48,096 bases of DNA. It comes from Streptosporangiaceae bacterium. GTDB lineage: Bacteria; Actinomycetota; Actinomycetes; Streptosporangiales; Streptosporangiaceae. Where the stretch lies: contig JAICUO010000003.1 in assembly GCA_025935815.1 (NCBI GenBank), positions 1-48,096 on the forward strand, read 5' to 3'. Shown piece by piece: positions 2,197-20,154 of this stretch. The notes under the pieces were generated by a model. That model worked only from the letters and a program-made list of their open reading frames with translations, did not search any database and was not told the DNA's origin. A program made the translations under genes and the position numbers. How positions within the stretch are numbered: the first letter of the stretch is position 1; the number at the start of each line of letters is the position of its first letter.

Positions 2197-4341
2197 ATGA
2201 GGGCAACCACACGCCCTGGCCAGGGTCGGCCCCGCCCCAGCCCGAGTGCGCGAAGATCACGCCGCGGCAAATCCATCGATGTTACGGTTGGTCGGGTGGA
2301 TGCTGGAAGCACTGAAATCCAGGGGGCCACTGTCGTCGGCCCAGCTGTCTCCGACAGTGAGCCCGCGAGCCCGGCCAGGCTTGCGTTCGCGAGCTTCCTC
2401 ATGCTGTTCGTGGAACTCGCGCTGATCCGGTGGGTCTCCGCGAATAACGTCTTCGTGAACACGACCTCGAATTTCGTGCTCCTCGCCAGCTTCCTGGGGA
2501 TAGGGATCGGTTTCCTTAACGCGCGCGGCGAGCGTGATTACGTGCGCTGGACGCCGGTCGCGCTGCTCGTGCTGGTGGGTTTCGGGCTGGCGTTCCCCGT
2601 GGACCTGCGGGCGCTCAGCGGGCCTGACCCGTATCACGGCCTGGGCATGAAGGCGCTTCCGCAGAACCTGAGCCTCGCCATCGTGTTCGTGCTCGTCGTG
2701 GGCGTGATGGTGGGACTCGGCCAGGCCGTCGCGCGGACCTTTGTCAGGTTCAAGCCGCTGAACGCCTACCGGCTGGACATCCTGGGCAGCCTCGCCGGGA
2801 TCGCGGCGTTTTCCCTGCTGTCCTTCCTCGACCAGCCGCCGGCCACCTGGGGGGTGGTCGCCGGGGCCGGCCTGGTGGTGCTGGTGCTGCCCCGGGCGCG
2901 GTGGTGGCAGTTCGCGGCGGCCGCGGGCGTCATCGCGCTGCTGGTCGTGGAATCGCTGTTGCCCGGGCAGATGTGGTCACCGTACAACAAGCTGTCCATC
3001 GAGCACCGGCACGAAGACGGCCAGCCCGCGGTCTCGGTGAGCGCGAATAACATTCCCTACCAGACCGCCGTCTCGCTCGGGGCGATGCGCGACAACCACC
3101 CCTCCTATTTCTACCCGTACCGGCACGTGACCCGGGCCGATCTGGGCAACGTCTTGATCATCGGAGCGGGGACGGGCAACGATGTCGCGGTCGCCCTGTC
3201 CCAGGGAGCCCGGCACGTTGATGCCGTGGAGATCGACCCGTTGCTGCTGCTGCGGGTCGGCCAGGCGAATCCCAATCAGCCCTACCGAAGCGACCGGGTC
3301 AGCATGCACGTCGGCGACGGCCGCGCCTTCCTGGAGGACACCCGCCAGCGGTACAACCTGATCCTGCTGGCGCTGCCCGACTCGATGACCGCGCTGGCCG
3401 GGCAGTCCGCCCTCAGGCTGGAAAGCTTCCTGCTGACCGAGCAGTCGCTCGCCGCGGCCAAGTCGCGCCTCGCGCCCGGCGGCACTTTCGCGATGTACAA
3501 CTACTACCAGCCGTTCCTGCTGAGCAGGTACGCGACCACGATCGAGGACGTCTACCATCAGGCCCCCTGTACCGAGCTTCAGCCCGGGAGCCTGGGCGGC
3601 CGGGTGCTTGCCGTCCTCACCGTCCACCCCGGCGGGCCGGTGCCGGGCTGCGCTACTTACTGGCACGGCCCCCGCCTCGCGGCCGCGACCGACGACCACC
3701 CGTTCCCGTACCTGCAGAAAGACCAGATCCCCAGGAACTTCCTGTGGATGCTCGGGGCGATCTTGCTCGGGTCGCTGCTGCTCGTACGGCTCGGCGGCGG
3801 CCGGTTCACGGGCATGCGCTCCTACATTGACCTGGCGTTCATGGGAGCCGCCTTCCTGCTGCTGGAAACGAAGAACATCGTGCAGTTCGCGCTGCTGTTC
3901 GGCACCACCTGGCTGGTGAACTCCCTCGTCTTCGCCGGGGTCCTGCTCGCGGTGTACCTCGCGGTCGAGACCGCCCGGCGGATACGGCTGCCCCGCCCGG
4001 CCGTGCTGTACGCCGTCCTCATCGCGTCGCTGGCCCTGACCTGGCTGGTCCCCCAGGACTCGCTGCTCGCCCTGCCGGTGATCGCGCGGTTCTTCGCGGC
4101 CAGCGCGCTGGCCTTCGCGCCGATATACCTCGCCAACCTGGTGTTCGCGCAGCGCTTCTCCGACGTGCACAATTCGGGGACGGCGTTCGCCGTTAACCTA
4201 CTCGGCGCGATGGTCGGCGGCGCGCTCGAGTACCTGTCCCTGATCACCGGCTACCGCGTCCTGCTCATCGTGGTGGGCGTTCTGTACGGGCTGGCCTTCG
4301 TGACCGGCCTCCGGCGCGGCCCGGCCGCCCAGCCCGGGTGA
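2197..4341 (+). CDS. Spermidine synthase-like SAM-binding domain flanked by multi-TM regions (membrane aminopropyltransferase-like); real start may be near 2298
   Basis: NVLIIGAGTGNDVAVALSQGARHVDAVEIDPLLL...VHVGDGRAFL core with hydrophobic TM runs on both sides. Confidence 0.75.
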   Translation: MRATTRPGQGRPRPSPSARRSRRGKSIDVTVGRVDAGSTEIQGATVVGPAVSDSEPASPARLAFASFLMLFVELALIRWVSANNVFVNTTSNFVLLASFLGIGIGFLNARGERDYVRWTPVALLVLVGFGLAFPVDLRALSGPDPYHGLGMKALPQNLSLAIVFVLVVGVMVGLGQAVARTFVRFKPLNAYRLDILGSLAGIAAFSLLSFLDQPPATWGVVAGAGLVVLVLPRARWWQFAAAAGVIALLVVESLLPGQMWSPYNKLSIEHRHEDGQPAVSVSANNIPYQTAVSLGAMRDNHPSYFYPYRHVTRADLGNVLIIGAGTGNDVAVALSQGARHVDAVEIDPLLLLRVGQANPNQPYRSDRVSMHVGDGRAFLEDTRQRYNLILLALPDSMTALAGQSALRLESFLLTEQSLAAAKSRLAPGGTFAMYNYYQPFLLSRYATTIEDVYHQAPCTELQPGSLGGRVLAVLTVHPGGPVPGCATYWHGPRLAAATDDHPFPYLQKDQIPRNFLWMLGAILLGSLLLVRLGGGRFTGMRSYIDLAFMGAAFLLLETKNIVQFALLFGTTWLVNSLVFAGVLLAVYLAVETARRIRLPRPAVLYAVLIASLALTWLVPQDSLLALPVIARFFAASALAFAPIYLANLVFAQRFSDVHNSGTAFAVNLLGAMVGGALEYLSLITGYRVLLIVVGVLYGLAFVTGLRRGPAAQPG

Positions 4342-4375: not shown

Positions 4376-5704
4376 TCACTGGCCGTTGCCGGGGTCAAGA
4401 TGGTGGCGGTACAGGCCGGCGACGCGGAAGGCCAGGTCGAGGGACTGGCTGCGGTTGAGCCGGGGATCACACGTCGTCTCGTAGCGGTAGCTGAGGTCGC
4501 TCTCGGCGATGTGATGGCCGCCGCCGAGGCACTCGGTGACGTCGTCGCCGGTGAACTCGATGTGGATGCCGCCGGGATGAGTGCCGAGCGCGCGGTGTAC
4601 CTCGAAGAATCCGGCGACCTCGTCCAGCACGTCGTCGAAGTTCCTGGTCTTGCGGCCGCTGGCCGCCTCCACCGTGTTGCCGTGCATCGGGTCGCATACC
4701 CACACCACCGCGGCCCCGCTGGCGGTCACCTTCTGCACGAGCGGCGGCAGCGACTGGCGGATCCGCCGTGACCCCATCCGGGTGGTCAGGGTGAGCCGCC
4801 CTGGCTCGCGGTCCGGGTCCAGGGCTTCGATCAGCTCGAGCACGTCCTGCGCGGCGGCGTCCGGGCCGATCTTGACGGCGACCGGATTGCGGATCTGGCG
4901 GGCGAACTCGACATGCGCGCCCCGGGGATCGCGGGTGCGCTCCCCGAGCCACAGCAGGTGAGCGGACAGGTCGTAGGCGTGCCCGTTCCGCGCGTCGGTC
5001 CGGGTCAGCGCCCGCTCGTAATCCAGCAGCAAGGCCTCGTGGCTGGAGTAGAACTCCACCGCGCGGAACTCGCGGGGGTCAGCCCCGCACGCGTGCATGA
5101 AAGCGATCGCCCGGTCGATCTCGTCCGCCAGCTGCTCGTAGCGCTGCCCGGCCGGGCTGGCGACCACGAAGTCCTGGTTCCAGGCGTGCACCTGGCGCAG
5201 GTCGGCGAAGCCGCCGCTGGCCAGGGACCGGCACAGGTTCAGCGTGGCCGACGAGCAGTGATACGCCTCGAGCAGCCGCCCCGGGTCAGGCGTGCGCGCC
5301 GCGGCGGAGAACTCGATCCCGTTGACCGCGTCGCCCCGGTAGACCGGAAGTTCCACGCCGTCTCGCACCTCGGTGACCGCCGACCGCGGCTTCCCGAACT
5401 GGCCCGCCATCCGGCCAATCTTCACCACCGGCACGCTGGCCGCGTAGGTCAGCACCACGGCCATCTGCAGCAGCGTCTGGAACTTGCCGCGCACGCTGCC
5501 GGCGCTCGTGCTGGCGAAGGTCTCCGCGCAATCACCGCCTTGCAGCAGGAACGCCTCACCGCGCGCCACCGCGGCCAGCCGCTCCTTCAGCTGGTCGCAC
5601 TCGGCGGCCAGCACCAGTGGCGGCAGCCCCTCCAGGCGGCGCACCACCGCCTGGAGGTGATCACGGTCGGGCCACTGCGGCTGCTGAAGCGCGGTCAAGG
5701 TCAC
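4376..5704 (-). CDS. Class II 3-deoxy-7-phosphoheptulonate (DAHP) synthase
   Basis: WPDRDHLQAVVRRLEGLPPLVLAAECDQLKERLAAVARGEAFLLQGGDCAETFA...VWVCDPMHGNT...GGIHIEFTGDDVTECLGG. Confidence 0.95.
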   Translation of the reverse strand: MTLTALQQPQWPDRDHLQAVVRRLEGLPPLVLAAECDQLKERLAAVARGEAFLLQGGDCAETFASTSAGSVRGKFQTLLQMAVVLTYAASVPVVKIGRMAGQFGKPRSAVTEVRDGVELPVYRGDAVNGIEFSAAARTPDPGRLLEAYHCSSATLNLCRSLASGGFADLRQVHAWNQDFVVASPAGQRYEQLADEIDRAIAFMHACGADPREFRAVEFYSSHEALLLDYERALTRTDARNGHAYDLSAHLLWLGERTRDPRGAHVEFARQIRNPVAVKIGPDAAAQDVLELIEALDPDREPGRLTLTTRMGSRRIRQSLPPLVQKVTASGAAVVWVCDPMHGNTVEAASGRKTRNFDDVLDEVAGFFEVHRALGTHPGGIHIEFTGDDVTECLGGGHHIAESDLSYRYETTCDPRLNRSQSLDLAFRVAGLYRHHLDPGNGQ

Positions 5705-5738
5705 GAGCTTCAGGTTACGTGGCGGGCGCGCTCGTCAT

Positions 5739-5879
5739 TCACTGGACGCGGTTACGCTCACCGACCACGATCGGCCCATGGAGATAGGCCCAGGTCCCGC
5801 CGAGGAGGCCGCCGAACAGCTCCCAGCCGCCGGCCAGAGCCGGCGTGCCGATGGCCAGATGATCAAGGACCGCGGTCAT
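5739..5879 (-). pseudogene. Isolated 46-aa N-terminal remnant of a VOC-family protein
   Basis: Minus strand ATG 5879: MTAVLDHLAIGTPALAGGWELFGGLLGGTWAYLHGPIVVGERNRVQ*; resembles the first beta-alpha unit of a VOC domain, then stops. Confidence 0.5.
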
Positions 5880-5947
5880 GAGACCTCGCGATACGGCCAG
5901 CCGGGCCGTCGCCAGGCCAGCGAAGTCGCTACTGGTATCCCCGCCTG

Positions 5948-7129
5948 CTATCGGGTGACGGCGTCGTAGATGGCCTGCCCGTAGGTGGCGCTTCGGTCAG
6001 AGCCGATGATTCCCGGTGCCATCTTGTTCATCATGTAGGAGATCGTCAGGCGGCGGCCGGTATCCATGATGATCATGGAGCCGCCCCACCCTCCCCAGAA
6101 GCAGATTCGCTCGTCGGGGATCCACGGCAGCAAGTCTGGCCGGGGCAGCCCGTAACCGATGCCCATCCGCAGCGGGACGCCAAGCACCAGGTCGACGCCG
6201 CTGACCTGCTCACGGAAAATCAAGTCGATGGTATCCGGGCTGAGCAGGCGAACTCCGTCGACCTGGCCGCCCCGCGAGACCGCGGACATGATCCGGGCCA
6301 CCGACCGCGCGTTCCCGTGCCCGTTCGCCGCGCCTATGTCCGCCAGCCGCCAGCCGGGCGTGTTGGCGGCCGCGGCGTCGACGGGCGGCCCGGTCATCGT
6401 CTTGACCGCCGGGCTGTCCGGGCCGAGCGCCTGCAGGTCGAACGGCAACGGCGGCGGCGGTACCACGTCGGCGATCCGCGGCCAGTCGCTTTCGGCGGCG
6501 CCGATCTGGAAATCGGCGCCCAGCGGCCCGGCGATCTCCTCGGCGACGAACTGCTTGAGCGGCTTGCCGCTGATCCGCCGGACGAGCTCGCCGACCAGGT
6601 GCCCGTAATTGAGCGCGTGGTAGCCCGACGCGGTGCCCGGCTCCCACCACGGAGCCTGGGCGGCCATCCGCGACGTCGCCTTCTGCCAGTCGTAGAGATC
6701 CTCCGTCACCGCCGGCTGATCCAGCCCGGAAACGCCCGAGGAGAACGACATCAGCTGGCGGACCAGGACGCCCTGCTTGCCGTTGGCGCCGAACTCCGGC
6801 CAGTACGCCGCGACCGGGGCTTCGACGTCCAGCTCGCCGCGATCGGCCAGCATCAGCGCGGCCAGGCTGGTCACCGTCTTGGTGGACGACCAGACGTTCG
6901 TGATGGTGTCCTTCGACCACGGGATCGTCCGGGCCTGATCGCGGAAGCCGCCCCACATGTCGATGACGATCTCGCCGTCAATGTCGACGACAAGCGAGGC
7001 GCCCAGTTCCTCGCCAGCGTCCAGGTTCCGCGCCAGCGCGCCGCGCACCGCCTCGAACGGCCCCGCGCACACGCCATGGATGTCCGCCACAGCCGTCCCC
7101 CTCGCCGAAAGGCCACAACTCACCGTCAT
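5948..7129 (-). CDS. Serine hydrolase / class C beta-lactamase-related esterase
   Basis: SxxK motif in [43 protein letters not shown]-terminal GWGGSM. Confidence 0.9.
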
Positions 7130-7173
7130 CGTCCTCTAGGGAGCAACCGCCGTCAACATGACCAGGCAGGTGC

Positions 7174-7950
7174 TTACCCCGCGGTCGCGAATCCCATGTA
7201 GGAGATCGCGGTGCTCCTCACCCGGCCCACGTCCAGTCGCCGGCTGAGCTCCCCGTAGGTGATCCGCCCGCGCCGGGCGCTGATGAAGCCGCCGAGCACG
7301 GCAAGGGGCCTCGCGCGCGCTCCCAGGCCGGTCATCTCGCCGGGGACGAGCCCGTGGCGCTCCAGGGTGCCGGCCAGCTCGGCGGGCGTGATGAACATGT
7401 CCCAGTCGTGAATCGCCACGTCGGTCAGGCGGGTCAGCGGCCACTGCTGCATCGCCTTGATCGCCAGCAGCTTGCTCGCGTGGGTGCGGTTGATGGTGTC
7501 GAACAGGTACAGGCCGCCAGGTCGCAGCGCGCGGGCCGTCTCGGCGATCACGCGGTCGACGTCGGACACGTGCTCCAGCACGTCACAGCAGTAAGCCAGG
7601 TCGAAGGCCGCGTCCGCGACGGGCAGGTCCTCGCCGGCCCCGACCCGGTAGTCGATGCGCAGGCCGCGCCCGGCCGCGTGGGCGCGCGCGACGCCGATCG
7701 ACACCGGCGACGGGTCAACCCCGGTCACCTGGCAGCCGAGGGCCGCGAACTCCTCGGCCAGGAACCCGCCGCCGCAGCCGATGTCCAGCGCCCGCAGCCC
7801 GGCCACCTCCGTACCCAGCCGCCGGGCGAGCACGCCGCGGAAGTAGGCGAACCGGCCCGGGGTGATGCTGCCATGCAGGACGTTGAGCGGGCTCGCCTCA
7901 TCCCACCACGTCTCCCCCAGCCGGTCGTAAACCTCATTATCGACCGCCAT
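7174..7950 (-). CDS. UbiG-like class I SAM-dependent methyltransferase
   Basis: WWDEASPLNVLHGSITPGRFAYFR...ALDIGCGGGFLAEEFAALGCQVTGVDPSP...LFDTINRTHASKLLAIKAMQQWP. Confidence 0.85.
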   Translation of the reverse strand: MAVDNEVYDRLGETWWDEASPLNVLHGSITPGRFAYFRGVLARRLGTEVAGLRALDIGCGGGFLAEEFAALGCQVTGVDPSPVSIGVARAHAAGRGLRIDYRVGAGEDLPVADAAFDLAYCCDVLEHVSDVDRVIAETARALRPGGLYLFDTINRTHASKLLAIKAMQQWPLTRLTDVAIHDWDMFITPAELAGTLERHGLVPGEMTGLGARARPLAVLGGFISARRGRITYGELSRRLDVGRVRSTAISYMGFATAG

Positions 7951-8069: not shown

Positions 8070-9470
8070 TTATCCCCGGCGCAGCCAGTACCACCTGCGT
8101 GTTCTGCGATTGGTTATCGCATTCAGGTTGTCCCGGGTGCTGCGGGTGTAGGGGTGGTCGGCGCCTAGCACGTGCTCGAAGTCAGCCAGGGCACGCTCCA
8201 GGAGCGGGATCGCCTCGGCTGCCCGCCCGGCGTCCTGGTAAGCGTAGGCAAGGTAGCCCCGAGAGGATGCGGTGTGCGGGTGGTCGCCGCCCAGTAGCCG
8301 TTCTCGGTCGGCGAGCGTCCGCTCCAGGAGCGGGATCGCCTCGGCCAGCCGCCCGGCGTAGTGATATGCGAGCGCGAGGTTGCCGCGACAGGTCACGGTT
8401 TGCGGGTGGTCGGCGCCTAGCACCCGCTCAGAGTCAGCCAGGGCTGGCTCCAGGAGCGGAATCCCCTCCGCCGCCCGCCCCGCAAACTGATAGGCCGAGG
8501 CAAGGTTGTTACCCGAGGCCAGGGTATCGGGATGGTCGCCGCCCAGTAGCCGTTCCCGGTCGGCGAGCGTCCGCTCCAGGAGCGGAATCGCCTCGGTTGC
8601 GCGGCCCGATTCCTGGTAGGCACCGGCGAGGCTGCTGCGGGAAGACAGGGTATGCGGGTGGTCGGCGCCAAGCACCCGCTCGAAGTCGACAAGGGCACGC
8701 TCCAAGTGCAGGATCGCCTCGGCAAGCCGGCCTGCATCCTGATAGGCAAGGGCGAGTCCGCAACGGGACAGCGCCGTATTCGGGTGATCGGCGCCAAGCA
8801 CCCGGGCGCTGTCGGCGAGGGCCTGCTCTAGGAGCAGGACCGCCTCGGCCGACCGCCCAGCATCCCGGTAGGCGAGAGCGAGGTCGGCCCGGGCGGCCAG
8901 GGTATCGGGGTGGTCGTCGCCAAGCAGTCGCTCGAAGACGGCCAGAGCGCGCCCGTAGAGCGCGATCGCTTCGGTAACCCGCCCCGCACGCTGATAGGCG
9001 AAAGCAAGGCGGGCACGGTAGTCCTCGGTGAACGAGTGGCCGGCGCCCATGACCCGCTCGAAGTCGGCGAGCGCCCGCTCTAGGAGCGGCACCGCCTCGG
9101 CTATCTGCCCCGCATCCAGATAGGCGTTAGCCAGGTTGCCCCGGGCGGCCAGGGTATCGACGTGGTCGGCGCCCAGGACCCGCTCGCGATCGGCGAGGGC
9201 CTGCTCCTGGACCAGGACTGCCTCGACTATCCGCCCTGCATCCCGGTAGGCGAGAGCTAGGTTCCCACGAGCGGTCAGGGTGTCAGGATGATCGGGGCCA
9301 AGCAGCCGCTCGAAGTCGGCCAGAGTCCCCTCAAGGATCGGGACTACCTCCGCTACCCGCCCCGCATCCAGATAGGCGTTAGCCAGGTTGCCCCGGGCGG
9401 CCAGGGTATCGACGTGGTCGGCGCCCAGGACCCGCTCGCAGTCAGCGACCAGGGACTCGCCCAACTCGAC
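8070..9470 (-). repeat. 126-bp tandem repeats encoding 42-aa TPR units
   Basis: Recurring GCCCGGCxxCCTGxTAxGCG...GGGTGGTCGGCGCC...CGCTC pattern every 126 bp. Confidence 0.9.
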
Positions 9471-10889
9471 TGCCTGCGCGAAGCTATCGCCGAGGTCGTT
9501 GAGGCAGGTGAGCACCCAGTTACGCAAGTACAGAAGGATCTTGGCCAGTTCGGGGTCATCACCATCCAGGCACCCGTCTAGGTACTCGCGCACCGCGGTC
9601 ACCTGGCCGATTGCATCCCGGGCCACTTCCCGGTTCGACCGGGGGTCGCCCATCGTCTCCGTGACCCCGGCCAACAGGTCACAGACTCGCATGCCCAGGT
9701 CATGGAGGGTTCCCTGCTGGGCACAGCGTTCCCGGGCCACGCGCATCACCAGACGGTGCGCAATGACGGAGGAGCCATTGCCGCTGAACGCCAGCAGCGA
9801 CCCCCCGGCCAGCAGCCCGAGTGCCTCGTCCACCGAGCGGGCCCCCGCCGGGCTGCCCTCCGCGCCCGGCGGGGCGAATAGCCCGGCCTCCCCGGCCGCA
9901 TACAGCAGAAGCCGCGGAGCACCCGCCGCAGACAGCAACGAGACCACCTCAAGCACCCCCCGGCACAGCCCTGCCTCATCGGCGGCCATCACGGTGTCCA
10001 GGGACAGCAGCACCGCCTCCGCGACCCCGTGCGGGTACGGCTCGCCGTATCCCGGGGTCAGGTACTCACGCAGCGGCAGCGACCGCAGCCGCTCCAGGTA
10101 CACCTCGTACGGCAGCTGCTGGGCGGCGATGACCGCGCCCGCCTGCGCTAGCGCCAGCGGCAGGGACCCCAGCTCCCGCGCCACCGCCAGCGCGCCGCCG
10201 TCATCAGCCCGCCGAGTGCGCCCGGCCAGGAACGTCACTGCCTCCGCCTCGGTAAACACATCCACGGGCACGACCGGGCCCAGCCCCGGCGCTTGGCTTG
10301 CTGTGGTGATCACCACCTGCGACTGCCCCGCCGCAGGCAGGAACGGGCGCAGCCCCGCCTGATCGGTCATGTCGTCAAAGACGACCAGGCACTGGCCGCC
10401 GTTCACCTCCAGGTGATGACGCACCAGGCGCGCCGTGTCTTCCAGTGGTATGCCCGCCTCCCCGATTCCCAGCTGGTCCGCCACCTTCGCCAGTCCGGTG
10501 AGTACCTCGGACGCGTCACCGGCGCTCAGCCACGCGACCAGCCGCCAGCCCGCGTCGATGCGGCTCCGGGCGTACGCCGCCGCCACGTGGGTCTTGCCCG
10601 CTCCTCGCATCCCTGTCACCACACGCACCACCGCACCACCGGAGCCGGCCTCGCGTAGCTCCTGCAGCAACCCGGCGCGCGGCTGGAATGCGGCGGGCGG
10701 CAGCGGGACATCCCCCACCACCATCCCCGCCCCGGCCGCCCTCGGTCCAGCAGTGCCCTCCTGATGGACGTACTGGGAGATGTAGTAGTTGTACTGCGTG
10801 TTGTTGTCGCCGACCTGCACGGCCAGCGGTCCGGCAATCGTGAGCGCATACGTTCCGGCGCGCCCGCGGCCCGTATTCACCAGTTCCAT
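8070..10889 (-). CDS. STAND/NLR-like NTPase with C-terminal tetratricopeptide repeats and an N-terminal RHIM-like segment
   Basis: Walker A GMRGAGKTH, Walker B CLVVFDD, VVITTAS, GSLPLALAQAG; about 11 copies of 42-aa (R/L)LGxDHPDTLxxRxNLAxAYxxAGRxxEAIPLLE; N-term LTIAGPLAVQVGDNNTQYNYY. Confidence 0.93.
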   Translation of the reverse strand: MELVNTGRGRAGTYALTIAGPLAVQVGDNNTQYNYYISQYVHQEGTAGPRAAGAGMVVGDVPLPPAAFQPRAGLLQELREAGSGGAVVRVVTGMRGAGKTHVAAAYARSRIDAGWRLVAWLSAGDASEVLTGLAKVADQLGIGEAGIPLEDTARLVRHHLEVNGGQCLVVFDDMTDQAGLRPFLPAAGQSQVVITTASQAPGLGPVVPVDVFTEAEAVTFLAGRTRRADDGGALAVARELGSLPLALAQAGAVIAAQQLPYEVYLERLRSLPLREYLTPGYGEPYPHGVAEAVLLSLDTVMAADEAGLCRGVLEVVSLLSAAGAPRLLLYAAGEAGLFAPPGAEGSPAGARSVDEALGLLAGGSLLAFSGNGSSVIAHRLVMRVARERCAQQGTLHDLGMRVCDLLAGVTETMGDPRSNREVARDAIGQVTAVREYLDGCLDGDDPELAKILLYLRNWVLTCLNDLGDSFAQAVELGESLVADCERVLGADHVDTLAARGNLANAYLDAGRVAEVVPILEGTLADFERLLGPDHPDTLTARGNLALAYRDAGRIVEAVLVQEQALADRERVLGADHVDTLAARGNLANAYLDAGQIAEAVPLLERALADFERVMGAGHSFTEDYRARLAFAYQRAGRVTEAIALYGRALAVFERLLGDDHPDTLAARADLALAYRDAGRSAEAVLLLEQALADSARVLGADHPNTALSRCGLALAYQDAGRLAEAILHLERALVDFERVLGADHPHTLSSRSSLAGAYQESGRATEAIPLLERTLADRERLLGGDHPDTLASGNNLASAYQFAGRAAEGIPLLEPALADSERVLGADHPQTVTCRGNLALAYHYAGRLAEAIPLLERTLADRERLLGGDHPHTASSRGYLAYAYQDAGRAAEAIPLLERALADFEHVLGADHPYTRSTRDNLNAITNRRTRRWYWLRRG

Positions 10890-12831: not shown

Positions 12832-15696
12832 TCACGGCCCGGCCAGCAGCGTCGCCAGCGCCAGCGCCGTGTCCGGATGGCGGCCGGCCAATGCCGCGCC
12901 TGGCCGGCCGCCATCACCTGTCGCCCAGGTTCCGTTGCCGCCGAGCAGGGTCGCCACCGCGTCGCAGGTGGCCGGGTGCGCGGCCAGCAGCGCGATCCCC
13001 TGGCCGGCGCCAGGGCCCCGAGCCGCCCGCGCGGGCACCGCGTCCGCGCCTTCCGGCACCGGCTGGGCCCGCCACGGCGGGACCCACTCATCCAGGGCCG
13101 CGAGCCGCCCGGGGAAGGTCCGCCCGGCCTCGCGGACGAGGAGCGGGGCCAGTTCCGCGCCACCCGAGCGCAAGGTAGTGATCAGGATCGGCAGCCAGGG
13201 CAGCAGCACCGGGTCGGGCAGCCGCCCGAACGCGTTCGACACCGTCTCCACGACGAACCCGGCCAGGCCCGGGACCGGCTCCAGGGCGTGCAAGAAGCCG
13301 CTGAGGTAGCGCGGGTACGCGGGCACCACCAGGGGATTGCCGAGCAGCTGGTCGCAGCGGCCGCGCAGCTCCGCGCGGGACAGGTGCCCGAGCTGGGTCT
13401 GGGCCGCCCACAGCAGCGCCGTCTTGGCCGGGTCCTGCGGGTGCGACTGGGCGACCGCCAGCTCCAGCTGGGCCCGGTCGCAGCCCAGCGACAGCGCCAG
13501 GCTCTCCATGCTGAACAAGAACCCCAGCATCGCCGCCACCGGGCGGACGGTGGCGTCCTCGTCGGCGAAGGCCGTCGGCAGCAGCGTGCAGTAGTGCGCG
13601 TAGCCGGCCTTGACGAACGACTCGATCCATCCGGGCAGCGCCGCCTCGCTGGTGCGGTAGTGGGCCAGCAGCCGCCGGGCGCGCGCCAGCACCTCCGGCG
13701 CCCCGGCGACGGTGCGCTCGGCCGACAGCACGTCCAGGGCGCGGGCGCCCAGCTCATCAGCCAGGCGCCGGCTGCGCAGGTACAGCGTCGCGTCCTCGAC
13801 GGCCGCCAGGACCGTCGCCGCCGTGGCCTGCGGGCCGTAGGCCGCGCGGCGCAGCCGCTGCTCCAGGACCTGCTCGATGCTGACGCCCTCGTAGCCCAGC
13901 TCGATCAGCGCCCGCTGGTGGGTGCCCAGCGCCAGGTCCCATGACTCCTGGATCGGCCGCTCGCCGAGCCGCCGTTCCCCCATGATCGGCCGCGCGGCGC
14001 CGTGCGGCATCAGGTAGCGCAGCATCCACAGCACGTCGGAGCAGCGCCCCAGTTCCGGCTGGGCGGCGATGTTCAGCAGCGCCCGCTGCATTCCGCGCTG
14101 CTGCAGCTTCAGGTTCAGCGCCGCCAGCCGGTCGTGCACGTCGCGGGCCAGCGGCGGCAGCGCGTCGTAGCCGACCTGGCCGATGCGGTCGCCGCCCATC
14201 ATGATCTCCACCAGGCGGCGGACGTCCCGCCGGCCCGGCACGGAGTCCTTCTCGATGCAGGTGACCGCCGCGTCCTGGAAGTCATAGGGGGTGGGCTTGG
14301 CGCGGTCGCGCATCCCGGCCAGCAGGATCGACGTCTCGAACACCGCGATGGCGTCCGCGGTCGAGGCGAGGTACCCGTTGCGGCGGGCGGCGCGGACGAT
14401 CTCCACCGACCAGTCCAGCAGCTCGGCCTCGTCCAGGTAGTCCAGGGCGGGCGGCCGCCGCAAGAACCCCGTCAGCTTGTCCGCGACCGGCAACGACCCC
14501 TCCGTTGCCGGGACGACGGCCTTCTTGGCCACTGCCTTCTTGGGCACTCCCTTCTTGGCGCCCGCCTGGCCTTCCAGGCGGTACGGCGTCGTGCCGGTGC
14601 GCCTGACGTTCTTCGCCCATACCGTCGCGGCGATCGACACCGAGCCCGCGGCCAGGCCGAACTGCGCCTCGATGGCCGCGTGGCTGGACGGGATCAGGCC
14701 GTGCTGCCAGGTGGTGGCGGTGCGCGGGCTGATCTCGAAGGTGCCGCTTCCGTGGACGCCGAACTCGGCGACGCGGCTGGCCGCGTGGAAGGCGCCGCAG
14801 ACGTACAGGCAGTCCGCGGGGTCGGCGCCGGTCGCGGCCAGGTGCTCGCGCATCCGCGTCCACATGTAGCGCTCGCGGTCCTCATCGACGCGCGTCCGGT
14901 GCGGGTCGCCGGGCGCCAGCCGCCGGAAGAGGCTGCCGATCAGGAACATGACCTGGCGATAGGTGTCGTGGTCGCTGACGCCGAGCGGCTGCTCGACGTA
15001 CTGGTGCCACCACTCCGACCAGTGCCGCACCCGGCCGTGCCGCAGCAGGTGCTCCTCCAGCTCGGCGAAGCGCGGCCGCAGGTCGCCGATCTCAACGCCG
15101 ACCGCGTCCCCGTGCAGCCCCGCCTCCTCCCCGGCGGGCGCAATCTTGGCGGGCGCTATCGTGGCGGGCGCTATCTTGGCGGGCACTGCGTCCGGGGCGG
15201 CGGCGCCCTCCCCGGGGGGCGCCGCCCGCTCGTCCCACTGGAACACGTGATCCGACGAACGGTCGACGAGGACCAGCTCGACGCCCGGCATGTCCAGCGC
15301 GTAGGCGATCGCCTGGTACTCCGCCGAGGCCTCGGTGATCGGCGCGATCACCGACAGCGGGGACCACTCAGCCGGGAAGCCGTCAACCTCGCTGGCGAAC
15401 GCCTGGACCGCCACCGGGAGCCGGCAATTGCGCAGCTCGGTCAGCAGCGGCGCCATGTCCTCGCACAACTCCAGGTACACGACCTTCGGCTGCTTGTCCC
15501 GCAGGCGCCGCGCCATCGCGATCGCCGAGGCGGGCGAGTGGTGGCAGACGGGGAAGATCTCCAGCGGCTCGCGCACCGCGCGGTCGACGTCATCGACGAT
15601 GCCCAGCAGGATTCCCTCCAGGGCGCCGGGCCCGTCGGCGAACGTCGCCGCGGCCTGGTGCAGCTGCCCGCGCAGTGCCTCAAAGGTCCCGCTCAC
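12832..15696 (-). CDS. DUF5682-like large protein with TraB/ChaN/TIKI-like N-terminal motifs
   Basis: GTG 15696 overlaps the MoxR stop (GTGA). EIFPVCHHSPASAIAMARRLRDKQPKVVYLELCEDM...DCLYVCGAFHAASRVAEFG. Confidence 0.8.
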   Translation of the reverse strand: MSGTFEALRGQLHQAAATFADGPGALEGILLGIVDDVDRAVREPLEIFPVCHHSPASAIAMARRLRDKQPKVVYLELCEDMAPLLTELRNCRLPVAVQAFASEVDGFPAEWSPLSVIAPITEASAEYQAIAYALDMPGVELVLVDRSSDHVFQWDERAAPPGEGAAAPDAVPAKIAPATIAPAKIAPAGEEAGLHGDAVGVEIGDLRPRFAELEEHLLRHGRVRHWSEWWHQYVEQPLGVSDHDTYRQVMFLIGSLFRRLAPGDPHRTRVDEDRERYMWTRMREHLAATGADPADCLYVCGAFHAASRVAEFGVHGSGTFEISPRTATTWQHGLIPSSHAAIEAQFGLAAGSVSIAATVWAKNVRRTGTTPYRLEGQAGAKKGVPKKAVAKKAVVPATEGSLPVADKLTGFLRRPPALDYLDEAELLDWSVEIVRAARRNGYLASTADAIAVFETSILLAGMRDRAKPTPYDFQDAAVTCIEKDSVPGRRDVRRLVEIMMGGDRIGQVGYDALPPLARDVHDRLAALNLKLQQRGMQRALLNIAAQPELGRCSDVLWMLRYLMPHGAARPIMGERRLGERPIQESWDLALGTHQRALIELGYEGVSIEQVLEQRLRRAAYGPQATAATVLAAVEDATLYLRSRRLADELGARALDVLSAERTVAGAPEVLARARRLLAHYRTSEAALPGWIESFVKAGYAHYCTLLPTAFADEDATVRPVAAMLGFLFSMESLALSLGCDRAQLELAVAQSHPQDPAKTALLWAAQTQLGHLSRAELRGRCDQLLGNPLVVPAYPRYLSGFLHALEPVPGLAGFVVETVSNAFGRLPDPVLLPWLPILITTLRSGGAELAPLLVREAGRTFPGRLAALDEWVPPWRAQPVPEGADAVPARAARGPGAGQGIALLAAHPATCDAVATLLGGNGTWATGDGGRPGAALAGRHPDTALALATLLAGP
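14515..14562 (-). repeat. Imperfect 15-bp repeat encoding a Lys/Ala-rich linker (AKKGVPKKAVAKKAV)
   Basis: CTTCTTGGCCACTGC / CTTCTTGGGCACTCC / CTTCTTGGCGCCCGC within the DUF5682-like ORF. Confidence 0.75.
15133..15177 (-). repeat. 15-bp tandem repeat GGCGGGCGCTATCTT, three copies plus partial
   Basis: 15133-15147, 15148-15162 and 15163-15177 near-identical; encodes AKIAPATIAPAKIAP. Confidence 0.9.
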
Positions 15697-16835
15697 GAGA
15701 GGGTGGCGATCGTGTCCCGGCCGCCCGCCAGGAACTCCGGCCACGACCCGCCCTCTTCCTTGCTGCGCGGCTCGACGACGCCGTGCAGGTACTTGTTGAG
15801 GATGGCCAGGTCCTCCGGCTCGCGCCGGGCCAGTGACCCGACCAGTGAGGAGGCCAGCGCGCGGGCGGTCAGCGCCCGCGCGCCGAAGAAGTTGCTGTGC
15901 AAGATCGCGTCCTCGAGCACGCCGATCTGCTCGGCGGTGGACAGCGCCGACTCCAGCTTCTCATCGTCGCTGCCGGCCGCGGCCGCCGCCGCCCGCAGAT
16001 CGGCGAAGCTCTGCAGCAGCACGTCGAGCAGCGTCGGCGGCACGTCCAGCTCGATCTGGTGGCGGCGCAGCAGCTCCTCGGTGCGGAACCGGACGATCTC
16101 CGCCTCGCTCGACTTCTTCGTCACCACCGGGATGCGGACGAAGTTGAAGCGGCGCTTCAGCGCCGACGACAGGTCGTTAACGCCCCGGTCGCGGCTGTTG
16201 GCGGTCGCGATGATCGAAAAGCCCGGCTTGGCGAAGACGATGCCGTCCCCTGTTTTCGAATCGCTGCCGAGCTCGGGGACGGAGACGTACTTCTCGGACA
16301 GGATCGAGATGAGGGCGTCCTGGACGTCGCTGGTGGACCGGGTGAGCTCCTCGAAGCGGCCGATCGCGCCGGTCTCCATCGCGGTCATGATCGGCGAGGG
16401 GATCATCGACTCCCGCGACTGGCCCTTGGCGATGACCATGGACACGTTCCAGGAGTACTTGATGTGGTCCTCGGTGGTGCCCGCCGTGCCCTGCACGACC
16501 AGCGTGGAGTTGCGGCTGATCGCGGCGGCCAGCAGCTCGGCCAGCCAGCTCTTGCCGGTGCCGGGGTCGCCGATGAGCAGCAGCCCGCGGTCGGAGGCCA
16601 AGGTGACGATCGAGCGCTCGACGAAACTGCGGTCGCCGAACCACTTCGGCGAGATCTCCCGGTCCAGGCCGTCAGAGCGTTCGGAGCCGAGGATGAACAG
16701 GCGGATCATCTTCGGCGACAGCCGCCAGGAAAACGGCCGGGGGCCGTCGTCGACGGACTCCAGCCAGTCCAGCTCCTCCGCGTACTTGATCTCGGCGGGC
16801 GCGCGCAGCTTAGCCGGGGGCAGTAGCTCAGACAT
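15693..16835 (-). CDS. MoxR-like AAA+ ATPase
   Basis: LLIGDPGTGKSWLAELLAAAI (Walker A); RFEELTRSTSDVQDALISILSEKYVSVPELG; SIIATANSRDRGVNDLSSALKRRF. Confidence 0.9.
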   Translation of the reverse strand: MSELLPPAKLRAPAEIKYAEELDWLESVDDGPRPFSWRLSPKMIRLFILGSERSDGLDREISPKWFGDRSFVERSIVTLASDRGLLLIGDPGTGKSWLAELLAAAISRNSTLVVQGTAGTTEDHIKYSWNVSMVIAKGQSRESMIPSPIMTAMETGAIGRFEELTRSTSDVQDALISILSEKYVSVPELGSDSKTGDGIVFAKPGFSIIATANSRDRGVNDLSSALKRRFNFVRIPVVTKKSSEAEIVRFRTEELLRRHQIELDVPPTLLDVLLQSFADLRAAAAAAGSDDEKLESALSTAEQIGVLEDAILHSNFFGARALTARALASSLVGSLARREPEDLAILNKYLHGVVEPRSKEEGGSWPEFLAGGRDTIATLS

Positions 16836-16856
16836 ATCAGAAGGCCCTTCTAGGCA

Positions 16857-18248
16857 TTAGGCGAGGAACGTCTTGAGCTCGTGGATGAGCTTGCGGATAT
16901 GACCGGAGACCACCGGCGTTCCGAGGTCCTTGAAGCGCTCGCGGAACCACGGGTTGACGCTGCCCGGTCCGGCGCTGCTCACCGAGCCGACCGGGATGAA
17001 CTTGGCCCCGGAGCGGTGGATCGCGGTCATTGCCTCGAACAGCTGCTCGCTGCGCGATTCGTAGAAGTCGGAGATCCACACCACCACGGTGTTGCGCGGC
17101 TCGGCGACCTTCGGCTGGACCAGCGTCACGGCGACGGTGCCGTCGGTGCCGCCGCCTAGCCGGGTGCGCAGCAGGGTCTCGAACGGGTCGTGCGCCCAGG
17201 GGGTGAGGTCGAGCGCGCGCGTGTCGTAGGCGATCAGGTGGACGTCGACCTTCGGCAGCCCGGCGAAGATCGACGCCAGGATTGTGCAGTTCACCATCGA
17301 GTGGACCATCGAGCCCGACTGGTCCACCACGACGATCAACCGCTGCGGCAGCGCCTTGCGGGCGGTGTGCCGGTAGTACAGGCGATCGACGTACAGCCGC
17401 TCCTCTTCAGGGATGTAGTTGGTGAGGTTCTTCCAGATCGTCCGGTCCAGGTCGAGGTTGCGGTACACCCGCTTGGGCGGGACCGAGCGGTCCGGGGCGC
17501 CGACGGTCGCCTTTTCCACCTGGGTGCGCAGCACCTCGGCCACCTCGTCGACGAACCGGCGGATCAGCGCCTTGGCGTTCGCCAGGGCCAGGCCGGAGAG
17601 GTTGCCCTTGTCCCGCAGCAGCTGCTCGATCAGCGACATGCTCGGGATCAGCTGCGCGGCCAGCTCCGGGGTGGCCAGCACCTCGCGCAGTTGCATCCGG
17701 TGAACGAGGTCGCCTTCGATGGCGCCCAGCTCGGGGCCGATCACCGGGATCAGCTGGCTGAGGTCGGGGGCCGCGCCCGCGACGCCGGCGCCAACCGGGC
17801 TGACGCCCGGTCCCGCGCCCCCGCCGCGCAGGCCGCCCGGCTGGCAGCCGAACGCGCGCTCCAGCCAGCCCGCGTCGGCCTGCCAGCGCGCCAGCTGCCC
17901 CGCGGTGACCGGGCCGGATCCGGTGGCGAACACGTTCAGCAGCAGCTTCGACGCCAGCGCCGCGCGCCGGACCTCAGCCGCCCGGTCGCGCGCGTCATCG
18001 GAGCCCGCCTCGGGCACCATCAGGCGGTCGAATTCGGTGGCCAGCTCCGGGTGACGTTGCACGATCACGTCGATGGGCGCCTGCGGGTCCAGCAGCGCGC
18101 CCGGCAGCCCGCTGTCCTCAACGACCGCGAGGCTCGCCGATTCCAGGGCCGGGTGCTCCTGGGGGTCGAACAGGCGGGCCAGCAGCCGCCAGTACAGGAC
18201 CTGGCGGCGGTTCTCGCCGGGGTCTGCCCCGAGCGTGCTCTCGGTCAC
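16857..18248 (-). CDS. VWA-domain protein with intact MIDAS
   Basis: VVDQSGSMVHSM (DxSxS), GGGTDGTVAV, VVWISDFYES; GTG 18248 forms a GTGA overlap with the upstream stop. Confidence 0.9.
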   Translation of the reverse strand: MTESTLGADPGENRRQVLYWRLLARLFDPQEHPALESASLAVVEDSGLPGALLDPQAPIDVIVQRHPELATEFDRLMVPEAGSDDARDRAAEVRRAALASKLLLNVFATGSGPVTAGQLARWQADAGWLERAFGCQPGGLRGGGAGPGVSPVGAGVAGAAPDLSQLIPVIGPELGAIEGDLVHRMQLREVLATPELAAQLIPSMSLIEQLLRDKGNLSGLALANAKALIRRFVDEVAEVLRTQVEKATVGAPDRSVPPKRVYRNLDLDRTIWKNLTNYIPEEERLYVDRLYYRHTARKALPQRLIVVVDQSGSMVHSMVNCTILASIFAGLPKVDVHLIAYDTRALDLTPWAHDPFETLLRTRLGGGTDGTVAVTLVQPKVAEPRNTVVVWISDFYESRSEQLFEAMTAIHRSGAKFIPVGSVSSAGPGSVNPWFRERFKDLGTPVVSGHIRKLIHELKTFLA

Positions 18249-19651
18249 TTGCGCAGCAGCCTTCCCGCGCGCTCCCGCAGCACCGACGTGGCGTCGGTGG
18301 CGGCCTTCTCGGCCTTGACGCCGGCCGCGTCGGTCGTGCCCCCTGCCCATCCCCCGGCCTGCACCGCGACCGCCTTCTTCTTCACTGTCGTCTCAACGGC
18401 CAGGGGTTGGACGCTGAATGACCCGGCGTCCCAGCGGAGCAGCCCGATGCACGCGCCGGACGCCGCGACGGCCTCGGGGGTGAGCGGTCCGGCGACGGGG
18501 ATGCGGTCGGTGTCGACGGCGAGCGGGCGCCCGGTGACGGTGAACACCAGCGCGTCGTCGTCCTGGCGGGCGGCGTAGCCCTCCAGGAAGACGGGCACCG
18601 CGATGCGCGCCGGATGCCGGTCCAGCGGCGCGGTCGCCATGGCGGTGGCGGTGGGCAGCGCGACCCGGGCGGCGGCGAAGGGGGCGGCGGGCTCGCCCAG
18701 GCGGGCGTGCTCGTCGCTCCAGATCAGGTCGCCCTCGGCGGTGACCGGCATGTCCGCCAGGTCCATCGACCGGCCTTGGCTGACGGCGGCCAGCAGCGAC
18801 ATGCGCGGGCGGAGCAGCTGCCAGACGCCGGCCCCGATGACGGTGTCCGGCTTCGGCACCGAGACGGTGGCGCGCACCAGGCGCGGCCCGCCGCCGTCAG
18901 CGGGCTCGAGTACCGCGTGGACCTGGGCCTGCGCGGCGGTCGGGTGCTCGGTCAGGTCGATGCCGAGGGGCAGCAGGCGGCCGGTCACCGTGCCGGTCGC
19001 CGGGGCGCCGGCCGCGCCCGGCACCGTCAGCAGCATCCCGCGCGACCACAGGTCGGCCCAGCGGCGGGCCGGGACGCGCTCCAGGGTCGCGCCCGGGCAG
19101 GACGCCGCGAGCTCGGCCGCGAAGCCGTCCAGCAACGTGGCCAGGCGGCGCAGGGCCGGCTCGGCGAGCATTGCCGAGACGACCGGCGCTGACTCGGAGA
19201 CCACGCCGGTGTCGAGGCCCCGCCATCCGCCGCGGGCCAGGTCCGACAGCCACGAGCGCGCGGCGGCGAGCACGTTCGCCGCCTGCCGCGCCGAGGTTCC
19301 CTGGCCGGCCTGCTCGCTGGCGGGGTAGTCGCCGCCGCCGGGCCGGCCGGTCGCCTCGGTGACCTGGGTCATCAGCGCGTCGTGGACGGAGCCGAGCAGC
19401 GCGGTCCGCGCGGCGGCCAAGGCGACCAGGTGATCCTCGCTCGCGACTCCGGCCGCCGCCTTCTCGGCCGCCTCCGCGACCCGGGCCGCGAGCGGTGTCC
19501 CCGTGACCGCGCCGGCCAGCCTGGCTAGCCCGGCGGCCTGGGCGGGCTGCGGACGGAGCAGGCCGGCGGTGAGAACCTGGTCGAAGGCGTCGACGGCGGC
19601 CAGGGCCTCGTCGATCCCGTCGATGGTCTCGGCGAGCAGGTCGGCGCGCAT
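18245..19651 (-). CDS. Uncharacterised about 468-aa protein of the MoxR/VWA operon
   Basis: ATG 19651 overlaps the SWIM-like stop (TGATG); MRADLLAETIDGIDEALAAVDAFDQVLTAGLLRPQPAQAAG... Confidence 0.8.
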   Translation of the reverse strand: MRADLLAETIDGIDEALAAVDAFDQVLTAGLLRPQPAQAAGLARLAGAVTGTPLAARVAEAAEKAAAGVASEDHLVALAAARTALLGSVHDALMTQVTEATGRPGGGDYPASEQAGQGTSARQAANVLAAARSWLSDLARGGWRGLDTGVVSESAPVVSAMLAEPALRRLATLLDGFAAELAASCPGATLERVPARRWADLWSRGMLLTVPGAAGAPATGTVTGRLLPLGIDLTEHPTAAQAQVHAVLEPADGGGPRLVRATVSVPKPDTVIGAGVWQLLRPRMSLLAAVSQGRSMDLADMPVTAEGDLIWSDEHARLGEPAAPFAAARVALPTATAMATAPLDRHPARIAVPVFLEGYAARQDDDALVFTVTGRPLAVDTDRIPVAGPLTPEAVAASGACIGLLRWDAGSFSVQPLAVETTVKKKAVAVQAGGWAGGTTDAAGVKAEKAATDATSVLRERAGRLLRK

Positions 19652-20154
19652 CACGCCTCCGCCCTCGTCGGCGGGAACCACTGCATCTCCGGCACGGGCG
19701 CGGTGACCGGGGCGAGCTCCAGGTAGGCCAGGTGGCGCAGGAACCGGCTGAAGACCGGCGCGGCGAGCGCCGTATCTCCCTGAGCCGGGCGGGTGACGCT
19801 CATCCCCCGGGTGATGCTTGGCGCGCTCGGCTCCTCGCCGCCCAGCTCGACCCGCAGGTAGCGGGCGACGCGCTCGGCGCCGTACTGCAGCACCGCCTCG
19901 TTGACCAGCGCCAGTATGTGATTGCAGAATGAACCCCGGGCGCCGCCGCAGGGACGGTTGTTGTTGGTGCTGCAGGCGAACGTGTAAGTGCTGGCGGCGA
20001 CCGACGAGACGTAGACCCGCTCGATGTCCGAGCCACTGGACACCACGCCCTGCAAGCGCCCGTCGGCCAGCTCGGCGAACGGAACCTTAGCGAGCTTGCG
20101 CGGCCGGGCGAGTGGTATCACCCGCGCCGTGCTCAACTTCTCCCAATCTGGCAT
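19651..20154 (-). CDS. SWIM-like zinc-finger small protein
   Basis: YTFACSTNNNRPCGGARGSFCNHILALVNEAVL: C-x7-C-x7-C-x-H. Confidence 0.75.
   Translation of the reverse strand: MPDWEKLSTARVIPLARPRKLAKVPFAELADGRLQGVVSSGSDIERVYVSSVAASTYTFACSTNNNRPCGGARGSFCNHILALVNEAVLQYGAERVARYLRVELGGEEPSAPSITRGMSVTRPAQGDTALAAPVFSRFLRHLAYLELAPVTAPVPEMQWFPPTRAEA

Follow-up and report, generated by a model that had tools for sequence, protein, structure and literature searches.

A conserved five-gene actinomycete operon related to E. coli yehLMPQ, with a split SWIM component and a putative MoxR-VWA remodelling role

The window analyzed here, a stretch of 48,096 nucleotides from a Streptosporangiaceae bacterium (contig JAICUO010000003.1), carries a five-gene minus-strand operon that is related to the yehLMPQ genes of E. 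coli. We give an even chance to the reading that this operon is a divergent actinomycete relative of yehLMPQ, here called clade D, in which the SWIM component is split in two, the MoxR-VWA pair would remodel a DUF5682-like protein, and the SWIM-like protein together with its neighbor P4 would serve in targeting. The clade names A to D were coined in this analysis.

Re-reading of the five genes directly from the window sequence, from 20154 down to 12832, bore out the predicted layout in full, including the gene overlaps and the 21-bp gap between VWA and MoxR (Table 1). The SWIM/P4 junction is TGATG, with the P4 ATG at 19651-19649, and the P4/VWA and MoxR/DUF5682-like overlaps are both GTGA, at 18248-18245 and 15696-15693, respectively. 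The gap at 16836-16856 separates the VWA stop from the MoxR ATG, and protein lengths are counted from the coupled starts. Since the third-position G+C is 0.89-0.95 across the operon, all five genes are supported as real.

Table 1 Coordinates of the operon genes and of the SWIM/P4 split point in the window.
Feature	Length	Position	Strand	Remarks
SWIM-like zinc-finger protein	167 aa	19651..20154	-	N-terminal part of the split YehQ-like component; ligands C61, C69, C77, H79
P4	468 aa	18245..19651	-	Completes the split Q-like component in our reading; in the model, a helical N-half precedes two small beta domains in OB-like order
VWA (CoxE-like)	463 aa	16857..18248	-	YehP equivalent; MIDAS DQSGS, then T or N, then D; Pfam VWA_CoxE 7.8e-29, motif counts
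MoxR AAA+ ATPase	380 aa	15693..16835	-	YehL subfamily by sequence; atypical Walker B RFEE; AAA_5 8.8e-38
DUF5682-like	954 aa	12832..15696	-	YehM equivalent; N-terminal alpha/beta domain, then long helical tail (model)
TGATG split point SWIM/P4		19649..19653	-	In-frame fusion takes its place in other strains

A one-genome-per-species scan returned 351 relatives of the DUF5682-like protein, of which the best 80 were fetched, and 20 more divergent relatives were added, picked from whole-genome searches. Gene content, order and strand were identical in all 94 loci in which the script resolved all five genes. The SWIM>P4 overlap of -1 was kept in 72 of 96 loci, the P4>VWA overlap of -4 in 66 of 94 and the MoxR>DUF overlap of -4 in 91 of 100, counts that lean somewhat to the window's layout because the start codon nearest to the expected place was taken in each relative; the length of the VWA-MoxR gap was variable. 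Flanking ORFs were not common to the relatives, with no cluster in more than 8 of the 80 loci (simple ORF caller; antisense frames inside the operon excepted). The fixed order and strand, together with the unshared flanks, thus define these five genes as the conserved unit, and the co-conservation whose lack would have weakened the original prediction is present. That five unrelated genes merely happen to be adjacent is hardly credible: the variable VWA-MoxR gap is the only point in its favor, whereas order and overlaps are kept while the flanks are not, and equivalent partners are retained in E. coli and in three other actinobacterial clades with differing gene orders. The conserved overlaps suggest translational coupling. 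They had been taken as the sign of one stoichiometric unit, of which the single co-conserved unit stands, while stoichiometry does not follow from overlaps.

The Pfam matches to AAA_5 and VWA_CoxE, together with the counts of the MIDAS motif, agree with the MoxR-VWA core that had been recognized from the letters. Between seven and nine MoxR subfamilies are recognized, YehL among them (PMC3893208, PMC11432383), and judged by its sequence the window MoxR is a YehL-subfamily ATPase. It shares 40-47% identity with YehL and the actinobacterial relatives of YehL, as against 16-24% with RavA and four further AAA proteins from the window's genome (RavA 17%). In a MoxR tree of 37 rows, clade D forms one group (100/100) that is joined with the clades including YehL (98/98). 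Since this tree carries the tool's long-branch warnings, we lean on sequence signatures: an unusual Walker B (R[FV]EE where DE is the rule) and the signature ATAN.RD[RK]GV..[LM]S.AL[KR]RRF occur in YehL and in clades A-D but not in RavA.

The E. coli genes yehL, yehM, yehP and yehQ encode MoxR, DUF5682 (YehM, 2.4e-98), VWA_CoxE and SWIM proteins. Homologues or equivalents of all four are present in the window operon, among them both the DUF5682 partner and the VWA_CoxE partner with its MIDAS. The E. coli and clade D systems are alike in their MoxR, DUF5682 and VWA components, with a SWIM-like protein as the putative fourth, and in the atypical Walker B and sensor signatures. However, their gene orders differ, their DUF5682 proteins are remote (20-25% identity), the clade D SWIM protein is divided between two genes and its finger is expanded, and clade D lacks the DUF4132 (yehI) neighbor; yehLMPQ is core in E. 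coli, whereas clade D is apparently mobile. Of 5426 complete E. coli genomes, 5165 (about 95%) contain yehL, yehM and the start of yehP. Full-text searches, with most subscription journals outside their reach, yielded gene lists only and no function for yehLMPQ, and no paper on DUF5682 or DUF5691, in keeping with the claim of a poorly described system.

For the DUF5682-like protein, a whole-protein hmmscan against Pfam gave no DUF5682 match, so routine annotation could overlook clade D. A trimmed segment nevertheless matched PF18934 at 1.9e-26 (93 bits), a genome search with DUF5682 (PF18934) found the window protein at 90 bits, and profile-profile comparison of the window family with other DUF5682 proteins gave E 7.5e-31 over 682 columns; the proposed kinship is thus upheld, though it is remote. 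The same contrast between whole protein and trimmed segment belongs to the open frame at 12832-15744 on the minus strand. Counted from the GTG at 15696, the residues invariant in 62 sequences of clades A-D include H52, H53, E76, E126, D145, R274, E275 and H304. In the AlphaFold2 model (pLDDT 81.3), an N-terminal alpha/beta domain leads into a mostly helical stretch of some 500 residues; H52/H53 lie just past strand 1, E76 within strand 2 and H304 just past a late strand. This N-domain recalls the TIKI/TraB/erythromycin-esterase enzymes, which have a 2His/2Glu site (PMC6254334), with the invariant H52/H53, E76, E126 and H304 as a candidate site. The best alignments to the TIKI/TraB/Ere families are in register, at E 0.088 and 0.37 against 0.24-0.51 for controls. 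With scores barely or not apart from those of the controls, the putative hydrolase kinship is not significant, and the assignment as a TIKI/Ere hydrolase was not adopted. Foldseek with the whole model, a search swamped by helical repeats, gave no PDB match. We regard the protein as a putative hydrolase or metal binder that carries a helical tail.

The label "SWIM-like" is a fair one: across about 80 unfused relatives the finger reads C-x7-C-x7-C-x-H, its three Cys and single His being near-invariant, though this spacing is unlike the classic C-x-C-xn-C-x-H and Pfam SWIM does not match the window protein. Compared with YehQ and the clade A SWIM protein, its profile aligns best on the finger, though weakly (E 0.07). 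P4 had been proposed as an undescribed adaptor; a role as an adaptor of its own is not supported, since 19 of 99 clade D loci have P4 joined in frame behind the SWIM-like protein. There one open frame of 637-704 aa spans both, finger first, close in size and layout to YehQ (614 aa). The split or fused state changes 10 times on a quick tree, and at least 5 of these changes are forced by supported branches. Given these in-frame fusions, the operon is best understood as a machine of four components whose Q is divided between two genes, and we read P4, from its sequence context, as the second half of that Q-like protein. Profile comparisons detected no sequence homology between P4 and the YehQ C-terminus, so the equivalence rests on fusion and position; nor did they detect a relation between P4 and DUF5691. 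On these grounds P4 was rejected both as a DUF5691 protein and as a recognizable homologue of the YehQ C-terminus, and no Pfam, NCBIfam or PADLOC family matched it. In the AlphaFold2 model of P4 (pLDDT 87.6), helices precede a pair of small domains whose strands and helices follow the order seen in OB folds, and Foldseek listed CST, RPA70 and SSB proteins among the top matches at E 0.05 or worse. As the layout fits but the matches are at this level, P4 as an OB-fold nucleic-acid binder is a lead only, and a nucleic-acid role of SWIM-P4 may be proposed with the motif and the weak fold hints as its sole basis.

The other clades arrange related genes differently. Clade A is SWIM-DUF5691-MoxR-DUF5682-VWA and adjoins genes resembling sucCD in several Streptomyces; clade B is DUF4132-MoxR-DUF5682-VWA-SWIM, the E. 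coli order, and is also present in actinomycetes; clade C is as clade B with a giant gene in place of DUF4132; and clade D is the type of the window operon. Clade A has the same four core families as clade D, but it contains DUF5691, lacks P4 and has an unlike gene order. The window's own genome has clade A genes as well, on contig C429, where TetR-type and patatin genes lie between MoxR and DUF5691 of this DUF5682 system (locus L084, 5857-14880). At four clade C loci (L170, L171, L172 and L176), giant open frames of about 1600-1950 aa stand before MoxR.

Actinomycetes are the sole class in which clade D was seen, and it is patchy there: 37 of 395 sampled Actinomycetes genomes match the DUF5682-like protein (about 9%), two of them weakly, and P4 is confined to Actinomycetes in a phylum-wide sample, bar one marginal match. 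In the DUF tree, the window lies among Streptomyces-type sequences, apart from other members of its own family. This placement suggests horizontal transfer, and the window's operon looks horizontally acquired. Clade D also occurs in five plasmid-collection records, some of which are very large replicons. In the phage collection, one unannotated record (MT835988.1, uncultured faecal 'Bacteriophage sp.') encodes at 12861-13919 a YehL-like MoxR 42.5% identical to the window's, and this may be host DNA.

A working model can be drawn by analogy with NorQ-NorD, in which the pore of the ATPase takes up a finger of the VWA protein and a linker undergoes remodelling (PMC13036017). By this analogy, the MoxR ring and the VWA protein would cooperate in the manner of NorQ and NorD, and the pair would remodel the DUF5682 protein, switching it between inactive and active states. 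The N-domain of the latter would hold a hydrolase-like or metal-binding center and its helical tail would be a docking scaffold, while SWIM and P4 would form a targeting arm that binds a nucleic acid or protein target and brings the machine there. We base this remodelling-machine reading on the conserved locus, the yehLMPQ domain content, the DUF5682 homology, the YehL signatures and tree and the SWIM-P4 fusions, together with the invariant His/Glu/Asp set at the strand ends of the N-domain and the NorQ-NorD precedent. Counting against it are the negative comparison of P4 with the YehQ C-terminus, the non-significant hydrolase scores of DUF5682, the long-branch warnings on the MoxR tree and the weak fold hints behind a nucleic-acid role of SWIM-P4. 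The roles suggested earlier for DUF5682 as effector and for the SWIM-like protein as sensor are conjectural. NorQ-NorD, CoxD-CoxE and RavA-ViaA have the general MoxR-VWA working principle in common with the operon, but they are other MoxR subfamilies, and no DUF5682 or SWIM partner is described for them.

The main rival, which we find somewhat doubtful, is a maturation chaperone in which MoxR-VWA would load a metal or cofactor into DUF5682 or into a client enzyme encoded elsewhere, the service that NorQ-NorD and CoxD-CoxE perform for their own clients. Such a chaperone would leave the SWIM and P4 parts unexplained, and comparison of the flanks found no metalloenzyme operon common to the relatives, although the VWA is of the CoxE type and the characterized MoxR-VWA pairs mostly have this task (PMC3893208, PMC13036017). 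The invariant His/Glu/Asp set could bind metal, but a metal site in DUF5682 is itself putative; the core status of the E. coli relative suits housekeeping. That same core status argues against the third reading, an unlikely one, of a conflict or anti-phage system in which MoxR-VWA would set the threshold, SWIM-P4 would sense the invader and DUF5682 would be the harmful effector. MoxR-vWA ternary conflict systems do exist and are defined by third components, namely VMAP, iSTAND, FtsH and beta-propeller (PMC7159879), and a MoxR-VWA core plus further proteins is a feature they have in common with the operon. However, Pfam matched none of these third components in the five proteins (bpMoxR, at E 0.089, was below the cut-off). 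Among VMAP-type motifs sought by eye in the MoxR N-terminus, WxhapG is absent and a PFSWRLS stretch partly resembles PsWRxa. The suggested affiliation with the published conflict systems is not supported: none of the third components was found, the MoxR clusters with YehL, and the relative in E. coli is core. The patchiness of clade D, its tree at odds with host kinship and its plasmid-collection records would suit a conflict role, but PADLOC gave no system match beyond a weak generic ATPase, and the sequences are strongly conserved, not diversifying. A defence-island survey by PADLOC and Pfam, covering 140 neighboring ORFs called by a simple G+C rule at 20 loci without a matched control, gave no clear enrichment, the neighbors being mostly metabolic or regulatory.

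We consider it quite unlikely that clade D serves as a mobile machine for immunity or stress, with a split SWIM/OB-type arm that senses nucleic acid and a MoxR-VWA ring that licenses DUF5682 as a new TIKI/Ere-type hydrolase family. If this were true, yehLMPQ would be a widespread, unrecognized ATP-gated hydrolase system. The YehL subfamily is without a function in the literature searched, yet most of yehLMPQ is present in nearly all complete E. coli genomes. Clade D is a compact, self-contained and conserved version with a defined parts list and invariant candidate active-site residues, and its natural SWIM-P4 fusions tell which parts belong together; the question of function is therefore directly testable in laboratory Streptomyces and E. 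coli K-12.

Elsewhere in the window, a 939-aa STAND-like NTPase candidate lies near the operon at 8070-10889 on the minus strand, with a weak NB-ARC match, about ten TPR repeats and the N-terminus QVGDNNTQYNYY. A 714-aa protein at 2197-4341 on the plus strand has weak matches to Spermine_synth (6e-4) and PADLOC mad2 (5e-12), probably generic methyltransferase similarity, and 4376-7950 on the minus strand encodes consecutively a Class-II DAHP synthase, a beta-lactamase-fold protein and a methyltransferase.
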